Shown: in pieces, positions 11,866 through 59,226 of the stretch | How the letters are laid out: the number at the start of each line of letters is the position of its first letter | Numbering within the stretch: the first letter of the stretch is position 1 | Source: a candidate division BRC1 bacterium ADurb.Bin183 | Lineage (GTDB): Bacteria; Sumerlaeota; Sumerlaeia; MWCT01 | Reading direction: 5' to 3' | Assembly: GCA_002070185.1 (NCBI GenBank) | Contig: MWCT01000001.1 | Span: 1-64,000 of the forward strand | DNA: 64,000 nt | The notes under the pieces: generated by a model | What the model saw: the letters and a program-made list of their open reading frames with translations, nothing else | The model's database searches: none | Told to the model about the DNA's origin: nothing | Position numbers and translations under genes: made by a program

Positions 11866-12524
11866 AACAACTCTTCCCTATAAGGATAGCGGAGGCGCGC
11901 CAGTTCCCGCTGGTGCGCCTCAATATTTATAAACTGCCCCAAAAGCCGAAGCAAAAGCCCCAGCGGCAACCCCACCACATTGAAATAATCTCCCTCAATA
12001 TGATGAACAAGGCTTTTCCCCGCGCCTTGAATCCCATACGCCCCCGCCTTGTCCAACGACTCGCCGCCCGCAAGATACTTCTCCATCGTGCCCCGCCTGA
12101 ATCGTTTGAAAAAAACGCGTGTCCGCTCCGAATCAACGGCAGCCGTTTCCGTTCCGCCCACTGCCACCGCCACACCGGTTATAACATCATGCGCCTGACC
12201 GCGCAACATTTCCAACATCCGGCGCGCATCTTCCCTGCCGCGCGGCTTGCCCAGAACTTCCCCGTTCAGGCAGACAATTGTATCCGCCCCGATGACAAGC
12301 CCGCCCTTCCACCGTGAACGCCCCGCCACCTCTTTTGCCTTTGCAAGCGCCGCCTTCATGGCATACTCCCGCTCGCCCTTAAACGGTATTGCCGATTCGT
12401 CCACGCCGCTGGCATCCGTTTCGAACACAAAACCAAGCCGCGCAAGAAGCTCTATCCTGCGCGGCGAAACTGAAGCCAATATAATGGGCGGCGCGCCCGC
12501 CTGTTCTTCTATTTTAAAAATCAC
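11862..12524 (-). CDS. maf: Maf-like nucleoside triphosphate pyrophosphatase
   Basis: 220 residues with the Maf landmarks: IILASVSPRRIELL near residue 14, SGVDES near 38, GADTIVCLNGEVLGKP near 80, DVITGVAV and a C-terminal GAYGIQGAGKSLVHHIEGD followed by NVVGLPL. Maf/YhdE enzymes hydrolyse dTTP, UTP and modified nucleotides to the monophosphate plus pyrophosphate, as a house-cleaning activity. The start overlaps the stop of the LPP20-like gene upstream by four bases, so the two are translationally coupled. The C terminus runs about 20 residues past the usual end. Confidence 0.92.
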   Translation of the reverse strand: MIFKIEEQAGAPPIILASVSPRRIELLARLGFVFETDASGVDESAIPFKGEREYAMKAALAKAKEVAGRSRWKGGLVIGADTIVCLNGEVLGKPRGREDARRMLEMLRGQAHDVITGVAVAVGGTETAAVDSERTRVFFKRFRRGTMEKYLAGGESLDKAGAYGIQGAGKSLVHHIEGDYFNVVGLPLGLLLRLLGQFINIEAHQRELARLRYPYREELF

Positions 12525-13279
12525 TTGACCGCTTCCCTGATGTCCGGATGTTCCAGCAACAAATCCACCTCAACCGTGCCATCGCTATTAAAGCGGCGGT
12601 CAACCATTCTGGCATCCCGCACAATCCCTTCCACGCGATTGCGGATGCGGTCGCTTTTCACCATAAAATCCTCAACGGTCATAGTTGACGAAATCTGCGC
12701 GCCCTTCAAAGCCTCCATCAACTGACGCTGGGCGTCCTGTTTTGCGGCGCGCTCCGCCATCAGCCGCCGGCGCACCACCTCCGCTTTGTTGGGGGGAAGT
12801 TCTTTATATAGTGTGCGGAGATTCAAGCGCATCTTCACCTCGCATTCGCCGCTTTCAAACTCCTTTTCTGCTACAACTTCCGCGCCGACTAAAAAAGCCT
12901 CGAACCGTTTAATCATCTCGCCGCTTTTCTCATAATCAGACGGATAAAAATCTTTTTTCATCGGCAGCCCCGCAGTATCCAGCTGCGCCTGTTCCGCCAG
13001 ATTACGCATGGCATCCAGACGGGCAGCCCGTTTTGCCATCAGACGAGCCTGCGAAGCGTTTGCAGCTTTGGCGGGCGGCTTGCCCCGACCAACGGCAACA
13101 ATATCCTCATCCGCCCAAGACATATCCGCTGCCTGCGGCGCCGTCAGCGCCGTTTGTGCGGTTTCCGCCGCGCCCACGCCCGTAGCCATCAAATGCACCG
13201 GCATAGCCTTGTGGCAGCCGCTTGCCGCCAGCATCAGAACCAGCCCCAAAACCAGCAGACCTGCTTTAAAAAATTTCAT
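12521..13279 (-). CDS. LPP20-like lipoprotein, distal copy
   Basis: 252 residues with a lipoprotein signal ending in lipobox AASGC. The mature part carries two repeats of an LPP20-type module. The first starts QARLMAKRAARLDAMRNLAE (about residue 77); the second starts RRLMAERAAKQDAQRQLMEAL (about residue 172) and continues through EDFMVKSDRIRNRVEGIV to the ending GTVEVDLLLEHPDI. LPP20 proteins are outer-membrane lipoproteins with structural or flagella-associated roles in some groups, but no function is established here. It is a divergent tandem copy of the gene at 13407-14231, from which it is separated by a terminator, and overlaps maf by four bases. Confidence 0.8.
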   Translation of the reverse strand: MKFFKAGLLVLGLVLMLAASGCHKAMPVHLMATGVGAAETAQTALTAPQAADMSWADEDIVAVGRGKPPAKAANASQARLMAKRAARLDAMRNLAEQAQLDTAGLPMKKDFYPSDYEKSGEMIKRFEAFLVGAEVVAEKEFESGECEVKMRLNLRTLYKELPPNKAEVVRRRLMAERAAKQDAQRQLMEALKGAQISSTMTVEDFMVKSDRIRNRVEGIVRDARMVDRRFNSDGTVEVDLLLEHPDIREAVK

Positions 13280-13406: not shown

Positions 13407-14231
13407 TCACCTGACGACTTGCGTGATATCCGGATGCTCCAAAACCATGTCCACCTCAACGGTTCCATCGGAATTGAAGCGTCGGTCAACCACTCTTGCG
13501 CCGCGGACGATTCCCTCCACGCGGCTGCGGATGCTGTCATTTTTCGCCATAAAATCCTCAACGGTTGTGGTTGATGTAATATGAACGCCTTTGAGGGATT
13601 CCAATAGCTGGCGATAACAATCCAGTTTGGCGGCGCGCTCCGCCATCAGGCGCGCCTGTGCGGGAGACACCAGCCCGCCGCTTGATTTGGGCGCCGCCGG
13701 AGGCGGCATTTGCGGAGTCGGCGCTCTGCCCGCCGGAATAATTTTGGAAAGCGGATGCAGATTCAGCCGTTTTTTCACTTCATAAGTGCCGTCCTCCATT
13801 TCCCTTTCGTCAACGTTTTCCGCGCCGGCGATAAAAGCGTCCACCTGCGTGCGAATCTCATCGTTCTCCGTCATAAAATTTCTTACGGTGGTATCGGAAT
13901 TTATCCGAACACCCTGAACCTGCTCAGCCAGATTGCGCAGGGCGTCCAATTCGGCGGCTTTTTTTGCCATCAGCCGACCTTGCGCGGCGCTGATGGCGTT
14001 GGCGGGCGGAACGCCCTGTCCAATGGCAACAATGTCGCCCTCCGCCCATGACATATCCACGTCCTCTCTTAGGGCAGGCGGAGGCGGCGGGGGGGCAGGC
14101 GCTTCGAATGATGCTTCTCCCGCGCCCGTCCCAGTTACCTTCAAATAAACCGGCACAGGTTTGCGGCAGCCAACTGCCGCCAGCGCCATAACCGCCATAA
14201 GAACAAGCAAACTCCACTTGGCAATTTTCAT
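13407..14231 (-). CDS. LPP20-like lipoprotein, proximal copy
   Basis: 274 residues. Lipobox AAVGC follows a hydrophobic signal. After a proline-rich linker (residues 43-53) come two LPP20-type modules, starting QGRLMAKKAAELDALRNLAEQ near residue 82 and QARLMAERAAKLDCYRQLLES near residue 191, both followed by the TTxxFMxxND module. The ending GTVEVDMVLEHPDI matches its neighbour at 12521-13279 almost residue for residue. Roles in envelope integrity are plausible but not shown. The start faces ftsK across a 288-base divergent intergenic region. Confidence 0.8.
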   Translation of the reverse strand: MKIAKWSLLVLMAVMALAAVGCRKPVPVYLKVTGTGAGEASFEAPAPPPPPPALREDVDMSWAEGDIVAIGQGVPPANAISAAQGRLMAKKAAELDALRNLAEQVQGVRINSDTTVRNFMTENDEIRTQVDAFIAGAENVDEREMEDGTYEVKKRLNLHPLSKIIPAGRAPTPQMPPPAAPKSSGGLVSPAQARLMAERAAKLDCYRQLLESLKGVHITSTTTVEDFMAKNDSIRSRVEGIVRGARVVDRRFNSDGTVEVDMVLEHPDITQVVR

Positions 14232-17037: not shown

Positions 17038-18591
17038 ATGACCGAAAAAGAAAATTTTTCAAGCCAGGTCTGGGGCGGACGCATGGAGTCCGAGCCCTCT
17101 ATGATGAATGTTTATTTCTGCGCCGGGCGCGACCCATTCCCCAAACCTGCTGCTGATGAACTCCTCATCCCTTACGACATCTGGCTCAACAAGGTACATT
17201 GCCTCATGCTGCACAAACAAAAAATCATCAGCCGCGCGGACGCCTCCGCCATTCTTTTTGCTCTTGACGAAATCGCCCAGCAATACCGAGCCGGCGAGTT
17301 CCACGTGGACAAAGACAAAGAGGATGTACATATCAGCATCGAATCCCGCGTTGCCGAACTCGCAGGCGAAAAAGCCGCCGGACAGCTCCACACCGGACGC
17401 AGCCGCAACGACCAAGCCGCCGCCGACTGCCGCCTCTATGCCCGCGACCGCCTCCTCGAATTTTACAGCCGCCTCCTCAAACTCGTGGAAACGCTTCTTA
17501 ATACAGCCGCTCAACACTTCAAAACACCCATGCCCGGATTCACCCACTATCAACCCGCCGCCATCACCACATTCGGGCATCTCCTGCTCTCACATGCGCA
17601 GGCGTTCAAGCGCGACCTCACGCGGCTCGGCATGACTTACGAACAATGGAACACCTCGCCACTGGGCGCCGCTGCCGGCTTTGGCACATCATGGAACCTC
17701 GACCGCGAATATACCGCGCGCCTGCTCGGTTTCACCGCCGTTCAGGAAAACTCGCTCGACTGCATCTCCACCCGATGGGAGTTCGAAACGCAAATCGCTT
17801 TAAACATCTGCCTCTTCATGAACCATCTCTCAACGCTGGCGCAGGACATCATCATCCTCTCCATGCAACCGCGTCCGATGATTCGCATAGACGACACTCA
17901 CGTCACCGGCTCATCTATCATGCCCCAAAAACGAAATCCTGATTTTGCCGAAGTCACACGCGCCAAAGCCGCCTTCTGCCACGGCATCGCCATGACGCTC
18001 CTCTCCCTTTCCAAAGGCGCGCTCTCCGGATACAACCGCGACTCCCAATGGACTAAATACGCTATGATAGACCTCTTTGACGAGGTGCGATGGGCGCCTA
18101 TCGTTTTCACTGAGGTCCTCGCAAGCCTCAAGGTCAATAAAGACGAAATGCGCGCCCGATGCACGGAGGATTTCATCACAGCCGTGGATATCGCCGACTA
18201 TATTGCACAGGAAAAAAACATACCCTTCCGCGCCGCATATAAAGCCGTCTCGGAGGCGATCCTTGATTCCGAGTCCGCATCCAAGAAAAAAGGGAACTGC
18301 CGCGAGATAAGCCTGGATGCTCTCAACCGCCGCCTTATGAAACTGGGGAGAATCAACCCCAAATTGCGCAAATCGGAATGGGCGCTTCTATCCGCCGCAG
18401 GCGCGCCCCAGCGGCTAATTGAGCGGAAAAAACACATCGGCGCACCCGCGCCGGAAGCCGCCGCCAAAAATCACCAGACGCTCCAGAAAAATCTCCGCAC
18501 CAAACAAATCTGGTATTCCCACAAAGTCAAACAGCAGGAAGCCGTCCACAAGCTCCTTCAAGAGGAAATCGCCAAAGTCATAAAAAAATAG
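17038..18591 (+). CDS. argH: Argininosuccinate lyase
   Basis: 517 residues. Fumarase-superfamily motifs are intact: TGRSRNDQ near residue 119, GFTHYQPA near 165, and the flexible signature loop GSSIMPQKRNPD near residue 290, which carries the catalytic serine. The enzyme splits argininosuccinate to arginine and fumarate, the last step of arginine synthesis. The family is usually about 460 residues. Here the last 55 residues form an extra Lys/Gln-rich helical tail (NHQTLQKNLRTKQIW to IAKVIKK). The gene is alone on its strand; argF and argD are 34 kb away. The ribosome binding site is weak and distant. Confidence 0.92.
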   Translation: MTEKENFSSQVWGGRMESEPSMMNVYFCAGRDPFPKPAADELLIPYDIWLNKVHCLMLHKQKIISRADASAILFALDEIAQQYRAGEFHVDKDKEDVHISIESRVAELAGEKAAGQLHTGRSRNDQAAADCRLYARDRLLEFYSRLLKLVETLLNTAAQHFKTPMPGFTHYQPAAITTFGHLLLSHAQAFKRDLTRLGMTYEQWNTSPLGAAAGFGTSWNLDREYTARLLGFTAVQENSLDCISTRWEFETQIALNICLFMNHLSTLAQDIIILSMQPRPMIRIDDTHVTGSSIMPQKRNPDFAEVTRAKAAFCHGIAMTLLSLSKGALSGYNRDSQWTKYAMIDLFDEVRWAPIVFTEVLASLKVNKDEMRARCTEDFITAVDIADYIAQEKNIPFRAAYKAVSEAILDSESASKKKGNCREISLDALNRRLMKLGRINPKLRKSEWALLSAAGAPQRLIERKKHIGAPAPEAAAKNHQTLQKNLRTKQIWYSHKVKQQEAVHKLLQEEIAKVIKK

Positions 18592-20967: not shown

Positions 20968-21795
20968 CTACGGAGAATAATCAAAATTGGCAAGGATGGT
21001 TATCGAAGACTCCTTGAACGAATCCGGCAGCGGCCCAAGAAAGCCTGTCTGCTCGACAGCCTCCAAGGCGAACTTATCCAAATCCCGCTGTCCGGTCGAA
21101 CGGACAACGCGTATATCATAAATGCGCCCTTCGCGGTCCACGCGAAACTCCACCGCGCAGTAAATTCCCTCATAGCGCTGCGAGCGCATCAGTTTGAAAT
21201 TCCCCTCAATCTTTTGCTGCGCCATCAAAAGATAATAATTTGGAATCTTGTCGCTTGCTGTTATTTTAAGCGGCAGCTGGTCGGCAACCGGCACATTCGG
21301 CTGCGGGGCGGGCGCTTGGCGCGCTGTTTGCTGCGGGCGAGGATGGAACGAAGGCTGGGACGGCAGAGGGGGCCAAGGCGTTCTGGCGGGCGGCGGCGTT
21401 CGCGCGGGCGCTGTGCTCGGCGACGGCGTCTTTTTCGGCGCAGGCGGCTCTTTGGGGACTTTTTTTTCTGTGGGCTTTTCTATGACTTTCTTCGGCTCCG
21501 GTTTAGGTTCGGGTTTCGGTTCTTGCTTTGGTTTGGGCGGTTCCGGCTTAGGCGGTTCAGGCTTGGGCTCTTCTTTTTTAACCTGAGGAGCGGGCGTCTT
21601 TACCGGTTCCTTCGGCGGCGCCGGCGTCATAACGTGTTTTGGTTTTTCATCTTTCGGAGGCGGGTTGACAAACTTCACCTGCATGGCATTGGCGGGTTTG
21701 AGCCGGATAAATTTCACCTGAATGGCGGATAATATCAAAAACGCCGCCGCAACTGCTATATGAAAAATTAAAGAAAAAATTATCGTTTTGTTCAT
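20968..21795 (-). CDS. TonB/TolA-like energy transducer
   Basis: About 275 residues from ATG 21795 with GGAAGA upstream; a TTG 15 bases earlier is possible. One N-terminal membrane helix (MNKTIIFSLIFHIAVAAAFL) is followed by a long Pro/Lys-rich spacer (PKPEPPKPEPPKPKQEPKPE type) and a C-terminal TonB/TolA globular domain with RYEGIYCAVEFRVDREGRI and a final beta strand ILANFDY. TonB and TolA carry proton-motive force from ExbBD/TolQR to outer-membrane receptors or Tol-Pal. The spacer length and the preceding exbB/exbD genes support either. No tolB or pal lies nearby, so Tol versus Ton is undecided. Confidence 0.88.
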   Translation of the reverse strand: MNKTIIFSLIFHIAVAAAFLILSAIQVKFIRLKPANAMQVKFVNPPPKDEKPKHVMTPAPPKEPVKTPAPQVKKEEPKPEPPKPEPPKPKQEPKPEPKPEPKKVIEKPTEKKVPKEPPAPKKTPSPSTAPARTPPPARTPWPPLPSQPSFHPRPQQTARQAPAPQPNVPVADQLPLKITASDKIPNYYLLMAQQKIEGNFKLMRSQRYEGIYCAVEFRVDREGRIYDIRVVRSTGQRDLDKFALEAVEQTGFLGPLPDSFKESSITILANFDYSP

Positions 21796-21842
21796 GCCGG
21801 TCTTCCACAACAGCCAATAAACTGCATTCTGCGGATATCCGC

Positions 21843-56258: not shown

Positions 56259-57881
56259 TTATTTGTCCGAGATGCGGGTGAGGGCGCAGAGCGATGTCCA
56301 AAATTTTTTGAGGGAAGGAATCTCTTCGTCGCCGACTTTCTCGCCGGAGTATTCGCTGAATGTGAATAAGCGCGCGATATACAAGGCGTGCTCCTCAAAG
56401 CCATCGAGCGCATCGGGTTTGCTCTTAACAAATTCAAAGGGCGTTTTATCAGCCGGACATGGCGAGCCATAATCATAGCACCAGGCAAGCATCGCCTCCC
56501 ACATATAGCGCACAAGGGCGTCCCCGTCGCGTCTCGCAGCCGCCGCGAAGGGATCCGCAAATTGTCTGAAGCGCGAGGCGGCTGGACGCTCTTTCAATTT
56601 TTTTGCCGCCTCTTTGCGCCGCGCGCCTTTGTCTTCTTTTTTTTGCCGTTGCTTTTTCAGGAAGACGCGCCGCGTTCCGCCCCATGCGGAAGTTATCATG
56701 AGGAAAAACATAGCCAACACCGCCGCCGCAGTTATCACAAAAATTATTTTTATGACCGCGCTAAATACCGCGCCAAAGGTTTCGTTGGCGGCTGCCGCAA
56801 GGAGAAGCGTGTTTCGATATTCCGGCTCGATGCCCGTGTTTCGCGCGATATATGATAGATAAGGGTCATTTAGCTTGTCAAGTATTTCATAGCGCTTGTC
56901 TAAAATTTGAAGGGCTTTTTCGCCATCGAGTTTTTCCGTCTGCAACGATTTACCGCCCGGGAGCGTTCCGTCCGATGAAAAAGGTTTTGCGGAATCGGGC
57001 AATCCGCCTTTGTGTTGCCAGCCGCGATAGACCGCTTGAATGCGCGTGCGCACATATAACCCAGAAACCGTTGGCGCCTGCGGCAGGAAAAATGCGGCGA
57101 CTATGGCGAGCGTTGTCGCGAGAAATCCCGCCGAAAGCCAGGGCAGCCCCACCCTATCCGGCAAAGCGACTCCCCGCTTTTCAAAATACGCCGCCAGACG
57201 GCTCAAATTGGAAAGGAAAAGCAGCGCAAAGGCGCACTACAAATAAACAAAAAGGAATATCCCCATACGCAGGCGCGATGCCGCATCCGCCCTGCCCAAC
57301 ACTTGAATTCCCGCTCCAAAAGCCGGTATAGCAAAAAGCGAAAAAATCAAGATGACTCGCCCCGGATGATTGCGAGGCAGGTTTTCCGCCAGCCCTTTTG
57401 CGTCGGATTTTTTCTCCTCTTGCGCCTTGCGTTTTTTTTGAAACATCTTTTTGGAAAGCACGCCGGTCTCCGCCGCCGCCATGTCCATCATCGGGTTATC
57501 TACCCAGCAGGCGCCTGCGATTTTGTGTCCCGTCCACCAAAGAATAATGAAAATCGTTTCGTTGACAAAAAAGACCAAAAGGGGCGGCGCGGGCAGGAGA
57601 TAGGCGTATGAAATATAAACGGCAAAGAGCGTGATTGCCGCTCCGAGCGCTGAGCCGTATGCCCGAGCATAGCCGCGCCCCAAAGCCCGCGACATCCGCT
57701 GCACCATGACGATTCCCAACGCAAAGGCGCAAACGGCAATGCGCAAACGATTTTCTCCGCCGGCAATAAACGCAAGCCGAATCTCAATCAGGTGCATCGT
57801 CAACGAAGACATCAGCCCCCAGATGCACAGAGGAATGAACAGGGCGGAAAATATTTTAGTAAAACCGGCGTCCTGTTGCAA
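56259..57881 (-). pseudogene. DUF4129-type membrane protein interrupted by an in-frame TAG
   Basis: Two pieces of one frame. 57881-57240 encodes 214 residues with about six membrane helices and ends MGIFLFVYL. A single TAG at 57237-57239 follows, and the same frame then resumes with CAFALLFLSNLSRLAAYF and runs to 56259, ending with the DUF4129 soluble domain (FRQFADPFAAAARRDGDALVRYM). The hydrophobic residues on both sides of TAG form one continuous membrane helix, so the TAG sits inside a coding sequence. The first piece starts with TTG after AAAGGAGGT inside the DUF58 gene end. TAG is used as an ordinary stop elsewhere (tonB, argH), so a recoded TAG is not the simplest view. Mutation from TGG, CAG or TAT/TAC, a sequencing error, or a start from TTG 57206 to make two proteins are the alternatives. 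Confidence 0.7.
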
Positions 57882-59226
57882 TCTCGCTCAACCTCCTTTC
57901 ATGCTCCAAATCAAAAACCTCGATGCCGGCTGGAATAAAAGCCTCAAAGGCGCGGTCGTGTGCCGCCGTATTCCGCACGATAAAAACCATGATGCGGTAG
58001 CCCAGAGCGCGCGTCTTAAGAACCGCCTCAATAAAGGCGTCGCCGCAATCGCCGGTCAAAATTGCCAGAACCTGCCGCCGCTCGATGCGCGGGATGGCAT
58101 CAAGGATGGCGTACTCGATACGCAAGCCGTCAGTGAGTTCGAGCCGCGCAAGATTTTCGTGGATAAGCGAAAATTGCTCTGAGGCGCGCCGGGCGGGGAT
58201 GAAAACCGGTTCAAGGCGGTCGTCAACGCGCCCCGCGCGGGCGGCTTCCAGCGCCTCGCCAAGGCTTTCCATCGAGCGCGCCTGCGCCAGCGTGATGCCG
58301 GGAATCCCGAGCGGGTCGCGTCCGTTGGAGAGCAGCCCCACAGACCAACCGCCCTCCCAGAGATAGCGGGCAATGGAGCACGCCGTTTCGAGCGCAGTCT
58401 CCTGCGTGGGGCGCGTGTCCTCCTGAATCCGTCCCGAAGCCCGCGCGAGCTGCTCCGCCATAATCCAAGAGTTTTTGTGAAAATCGAGAACGATTGTCGC
58501 GCCCGCCACCTCAATCGGGTCATAGACCTTGCTGAGCAGGCTGCCGGTGTGGGCGGTGGATTTCCAATGGATGCGTTTGAGTGAATCGCCGCGTTGATAT
58601 TCGCGGATTCCCCTGATGCGGGAGGGGTCGTCGAAAAGGCTGCGCTCAGCGCAGAAATCTCCCAACATGCGGCGCTGCCCGATTTGAAAGGATTCTATTT
58701 CTGTGTATTCGGGCAGAACGGTGACAAAATCGCGCTGCTTTTCCATGCGTGTCTTGCGGAAAAAACCGAAGATGTCGCCTGTTTCAATGACAACCGGTCC
58801 AATGCGGTGGCATCCGCGCCGCGTGAAAGAGACGCTGTAAAAAAGATGCGCGGTCTCGCCGGGGGCAAGATAGATGAGACGTTTTGTTGTCCCCTCGATG
58901 CGCATTTTTTCCGGCAGCGTTTCTTCGACATAAGCCCAGAGGATGGGGAACCAGTGCGGGTTGCGGATACGCGCCACAACTTTGACCGTTTCGCCGATGC
59001 GGATAACTTCATCGCTGACATGGCGCGCGCATTGCAGCGGCTTCATCCACAGGAGCGTCATAATGCGCGCCCCCGCCAGCAGAACATAAAAGGCATAAAC
59101 GCACAGGGAAAGGATTCCCATTTGCAGATAAAAAAAGAGCGCCGCCAGCCCCGCCGGAGCCAGTCCCCAAATCAGAATCGGAATAAAAAATTTCTTAAAC
59201 ACCTTAGCGTCTGCGCCTGCCCGCAA
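57856..59226 (-). CDS. DUF58-domain protein
   Basis: 456 residues. Two membrane helices near the start (residues 14-55) are followed by a beta domain (GETVKVVARIRNPHWFPILW) and the DUF58 core: RGIREYQRGDSLKRIHWKSTAHTG near residue 205, then a von Willebrand-like part, TIVLDFHKNSW. DUF58 proteins occur with MoxR ATPases and DUF4129/transglutaminase-like genes; here the DUF4129-type gene follows directly with a 26-base overlap but no MoxR gene is in the window. The start TTG at 59226 is uncertain; a GTG 24 bases later is also possible. Confidence 0.85.
   Translation of the reverse strand: MRAGADAKVFKKFFIPILIWGLAPAGLAALFFYLQMGILSLCVYAFYVLLAGARIMTLLWMKPLQCARHVSDEVIRIGETVKVVARIRNPHWFPILWAYVEETLPEKMRIEGTTKRLIYLAPGETAHLFYSVSFTRRGCHRIGPVVIETGDIFGFFRKTRMEKQRDFVTVLPEYTEIESFQIGQRRMLGDFCAERSLFDDPSRIRGIREYQRGDSLKRIHWKSTAHTGSLLSKVYDPIEVAGATIVLDFHKNSWIMAEQLARASGRIQEDTRPTQETALETACSIARYLWEGGWSVGLLSNGRDPLGIPGITLAQARSMESLGEALEAARAGRVDDRLEPVFIPARRASEQFSLIHENLARLELTDGLRIEYAILDAIPRIERRQVLAILTGDCGDAFIEAVLKTRALGYRIMVFIVRNTAAHDRAFEAFIPAGIEVFDLEHERRLSEIATGRRFY

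Follow-up and report, generated by a model that had tools for sequence, protein, structure and literature searches.

The minus-strand gene at 57881-56259 of the window, as we call the whole stretch of 64,000 nucleotides analysed here, is interrupted by one in-frame TAG, which probably represents a recent private nonsense allele that is real in the cells. The original prediction described the interruption correctly, and the phenomenon is an ordinary one: one premature TAG in one gene of one assembly. We infer that the change is recent and has led to loss of function.

The minus-strand frame from 57881 to 56262 comprises 540 codons and is open save for the TAG at 57239-57237 (codon 215). Both translation and direct reading of the sequence bear out the claim that a lone TAG breaks the frame. 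Translation of 57881-56259 gives 214 codons, the TAG, 325 codons and a terminal TAA, and no further lesion follows the TAG. The 5′ part of the broken gene (57881-57240) begins with the TTG at 57881, which has a GGAGG about 10 nt upstream and is likely the start of the gene. This part shares 26 bases with the 3′ end of the upstream DUF58-like gene on the same strand (59226-57856). The 3′ part (57236-56259) has a weak DUF4129 match near its C-terminus. Residues 206-224 (MGIFLFVYL, the stop, and CAFALLFLS; mean hydropathy 2.34) form the hydropathy peak, no other part of the N-terminal half being as hydrophobic. Since this peak spans the TAG, the stop falls inside one predicted helix, in agreement with the original prediction. 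A structure model of the read-through protein was poor (mean pLDDT 50, pTM 0.24) and has residue 215 in a predicted helix of residues 200-235. When solved structures were searched with a profile, only weak matches emerged, the best of them to TRPC channels (positions 190-252, E 0.0027), which we take as a resemblance between hydrophobic helices.

Seven of 61 genomes (the window's own among them) match the read-through protein, and one of these seven matches is the window itself. Five relatives cover the site (L003 to L007); a further one (L008) is a C-terminal piece whose contig ends before it. All five have one uninterrupted frame, and none shows two separate genes with the same break. The relatives align over their full length, through the stop, with 38-60% identity, so that the open frame across the TAG is more than a product of chance. 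In the alignment column of the TAG, Trp is found in four of the five relatives (L003, L004, L005 and L006) and Tyr in one (L007), while Cys216, the residue directly after the TAG, is invariant. The earlier proposal of a point mutation or sequencing error is thus supported as the loss of one aromatic codon, whereas an origin from Gln (CAG) finds no support. Apart from the window's own, none of the 61 genomes belongs to the same species or genus. When the 39 genomes of the class were searched with a profile, the same seven genomes were found, plus a weak second match in one genome (G001); in these matches, three rows besides the one with the TAG contain stops, and the coordinates imply that matches extend upstream of the gene start. 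A search of the genome contigs with the 3′ half of the gene gave no match, and a search with the DUF58-like protein gave one relative.

The assignment of the protein to the DUF4129 type stands only in part. The window protein reaches 15.2 bits against DUF4129 (PF13559), which is below the gathering cut-off of 24.8, but the family is matched weakly by all six aligned members (the window and the five relatives) at E values up to 1, the best being 9.1e-6. By these scores the window protein would be at most a divergent relative of DUF4129. The upstream gene is similarly close to its threshold (22.7 bits versus a cut-off of 23.4 for DUF58). In the nearest named relative the DUF58-like protein is 71% identical over the best segment, and the intact partner comes directly after it. 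DUF58 and DUF4129 proteins often accompany MoxR-type ATPases and transglutaminase-like membrane proteins. The genome has four MoxR-type ATPase genes (C13, C1 at 245 kb, C5 and C7), none of them within the window. The DUF58-like and DUF4129-like proteins are presumably partners. The pair (56259-59226) is isolated, with neighbours on the other strand.

TAG is an ordinary stop codon in this genome. Selection of ORFs of at least 100 aa without large overlaps gave 54 ORFs in the window, and eight of these, the truncated frame included, terminate in TAG. Pfam domains are clearly recognised in six of the other seven (phosphoribosyltransferase, Maf, argininosuccinate lyase, ExbD, ExbB and ParB), and one is unmatched. 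The tonB-like ORF (20968-21810), named from its position after exbB/exbD and its proline-rich sequence without a family search, and the argininosuccinate lyase ORF (17038-18591) both end in TAG, which bears out the original view of TAG as a regular stop at these two genes (tonB and argH). As a separate observation, two adjoining lipoprotein-like ORFs on the minus strand of the window (12521-13279 and 13407-14231) have similar N-termini and perhaps represent a tandem duplication. Over 463 kb, 209 long ORFs end 31 times in TAG, 111 times in TAA and 67 times in TGA. A codon-model scan with a threshold of 0.15 did not list the site itself, while a dicodon model with looser thresholds did. The dicodon scan covered 673 stops flanked on either side by 60 or more open codons. 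The loose thresholds, a filter that lets through many gene junctions and antisense frames, were passed by 67 of them. Fourteen of these are TAG, including the site. Judged from translations and ORF overlaps, none of the 13 other TAG candidates in the 463 kb lies within a gene: six are junctions between genes (8349, 176167, 179347, 295686, 205327 and 414703), and seven lie under a longer ORF in another frame (211465, 424259, 89297, 180858, 347317, 360950 and 200633). Two of the junctions (176167 and 205327) are also overlain by a shorter ORF on the opposite strand. Three of the 53 TAA/TGA hits from the same scan were read. On the strength of the TAG-terminated genes and the 463-kb scan, we reject a genome-wide recoding of TAG.

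To the nearest relative, L003, the window is 62% identical before the stop and 58-59% identical after it. With L004, L005 and L006 as outgroups, the changes unique to the window and unique to L003 numbered 21/16, 23/13 and 27/19 before the TAG, and 32/25, 17/22 and 25/29 after it. With these three outgroups there is no clear excess of window-lineage changes after the stop. Together with the presence of only a single lesion, this fits a change that is either recent or not real. In the latter case the TAG would be a base error in the consensus, or a minority strain allele chosen by the assembler, and the gene would be intact in the cells. We regard this as possible but rather unlikely. It would agree with the presence of exactly one lesion, with no decay or rate change behind it, and with the nature of the source, a Sumerlaeota-like metagenome-assembled genome of 39 contigs with an estimated completeness of about 95%. 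However, none of the 13 other TAG candidates in the 463 kb was recognised as an interrupted gene, and such point errors are therefore infrequent here.

Much less probable is that the TAG is read through by a suppressor tRNA, as pyrrolysine or by leaky termination, and that the full-length protein is made. The frame on either side of the TAG is coding-like, with scores of 0.29 and 0.20 (2% quantile of the training ORFs: 0.22), and the sequence at the TAG can fold into a small hairpin, but this fold is unexceptional (z -1.29). Between 56200 and 57950 no Rfam family exceeded its gathering score, and the one sub-threshold match is far from the stop. The Rfam tRNA model detected 45 tRNAs, to all of which ARAGORN assigned a sense anticodon. 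The anticodon CUA was thus not found among the 45 tRNAs of an assembly that is about 95% complete and whose inventory also lacks tRNA-Trp (CCA). A pattern search for the CTA anticodon gave four matches (reversed control: 7 and 7), and none is a tRNA with that anticodon: three are at loci without any tRNA, and one lies within tRNA-Glu(CTC) off its anticodon. As for tRNA-Trp (CCA), which the organism must possess, the corresponding pattern gave 26 matches, none of which is tRNA-Trp by eye. Its absence from the 45 tRNAs is probably an assembly gap, given the estimated completeness. The genome encodes both RF1 (361 aa) and RF2 (346 aa) as full ORFs, distinguished by their characteristic motifs, and RF1 is intact. 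No PylS match exceeded the cut-off of 178.15; two matches scored 30.6 and 22.3 bits, and one of 14 control genomes was above the cut-off. Against readthrough also stand the relatives, none of which has a stop at the site, and the lack of any second gene with an internal TAG among the 13 other candidates. The original prediction had named readthrough as an option and suppressor or pyrrolysine tRNA genes as something to look for. The tRNA inventory, the intact RF1 and the PylS search all fail to support readthrough by such tRNAs, and on this evidence we reject a suppressor or pyrrolysine reading.

We give even less credence to the suggestion that the two halves are made as separate subunits, with translation of the second starting anew after the TAG. 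Downstream of the TAG there are in-frame TTG (57206 and 57164) and GTG (57152) codons. The TTG at 57206-57204, originally proposed as the restart, does exist, but the 20 bases before it contain no Shine-Dalgarno-like sequence. The TTG at 57164-57162 is preceded by a weak GGGGAG-like sequence and, of the in-frame restart candidates in the first 60 codons downstream of the TAG, is the least bad. The break falls, however, across a predicted membrane helix, and since the protein is fused in one frame in all five relatives and encoded by two genes in none, the split two-subunit protein was rejected. A regulated UAG readthrough of this one membrane-protein gene, by which a bacterium lacking a CUA suppressor tRNA would produce both a short and a long form of the protein, is very improbable.

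The nonsense substitution therefore remains the best explanation. In this lineage there would have been one gene of 540 codons, probably translated together with the preceding DUF58-like gene. A single substitution has probably turned a conserved aromatic codon, most likely for tryptophan, in the predicted transmembrane helix into TAG. RF1 would terminate translation at this TAG, leaving an N-terminal membrane fragment of 214 residues that lacks the C-terminal DUF4129-like region. The outcome would be a recent loss-of-function allele of the second protein of the DUF58/DUF4129-like pair. Loss of the gene would be unsurprising, because it was found in only 7 of the 39 genomes of the class at the sensitivity used.

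The finding has little importance beyond annotation. Gene callers will cut the gene in two, and the result should not be taken for two subunits or for stop-codon recoding. It also provides a small, clean negative test of UAG recoding in a Sumerlaeota-like genome. No literature on this gene was found among titles and the first parts of abstracts.

Compared with known systems, the case resembles UAG recoding, either as pyrrolysine (PylS/pylT) or as Gln (genetic code 15, crAss-like phages), in having an in-frame TAG that is flanked by coding sequence. It differs from these systems in that no CUA tRNA was found, RF1 is present, TAG ends normal genes and only one gene is affected. With a pseudogene caused by a nonsense mutation it shares the one in-frame stop, the intact frame in relatives and the use of TAG as a stop elsewhere in the genome; here there is a single lesion in one assembly of the species, so that fixation and functional loss are at most putative. 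An intact homologue is found in Candidatus Sumerlaeota bacterium LacPavin_0920_SED5_MAG_50_10 (JAPLSR010000331.1, L011 6289-7950), whose 553-aa ORF is the same as that of L003. There the gene likewise follows a DUF58-like gene and its product is 59-60% identical, but it has no internal stop and carries Trp at the site of the TAG.
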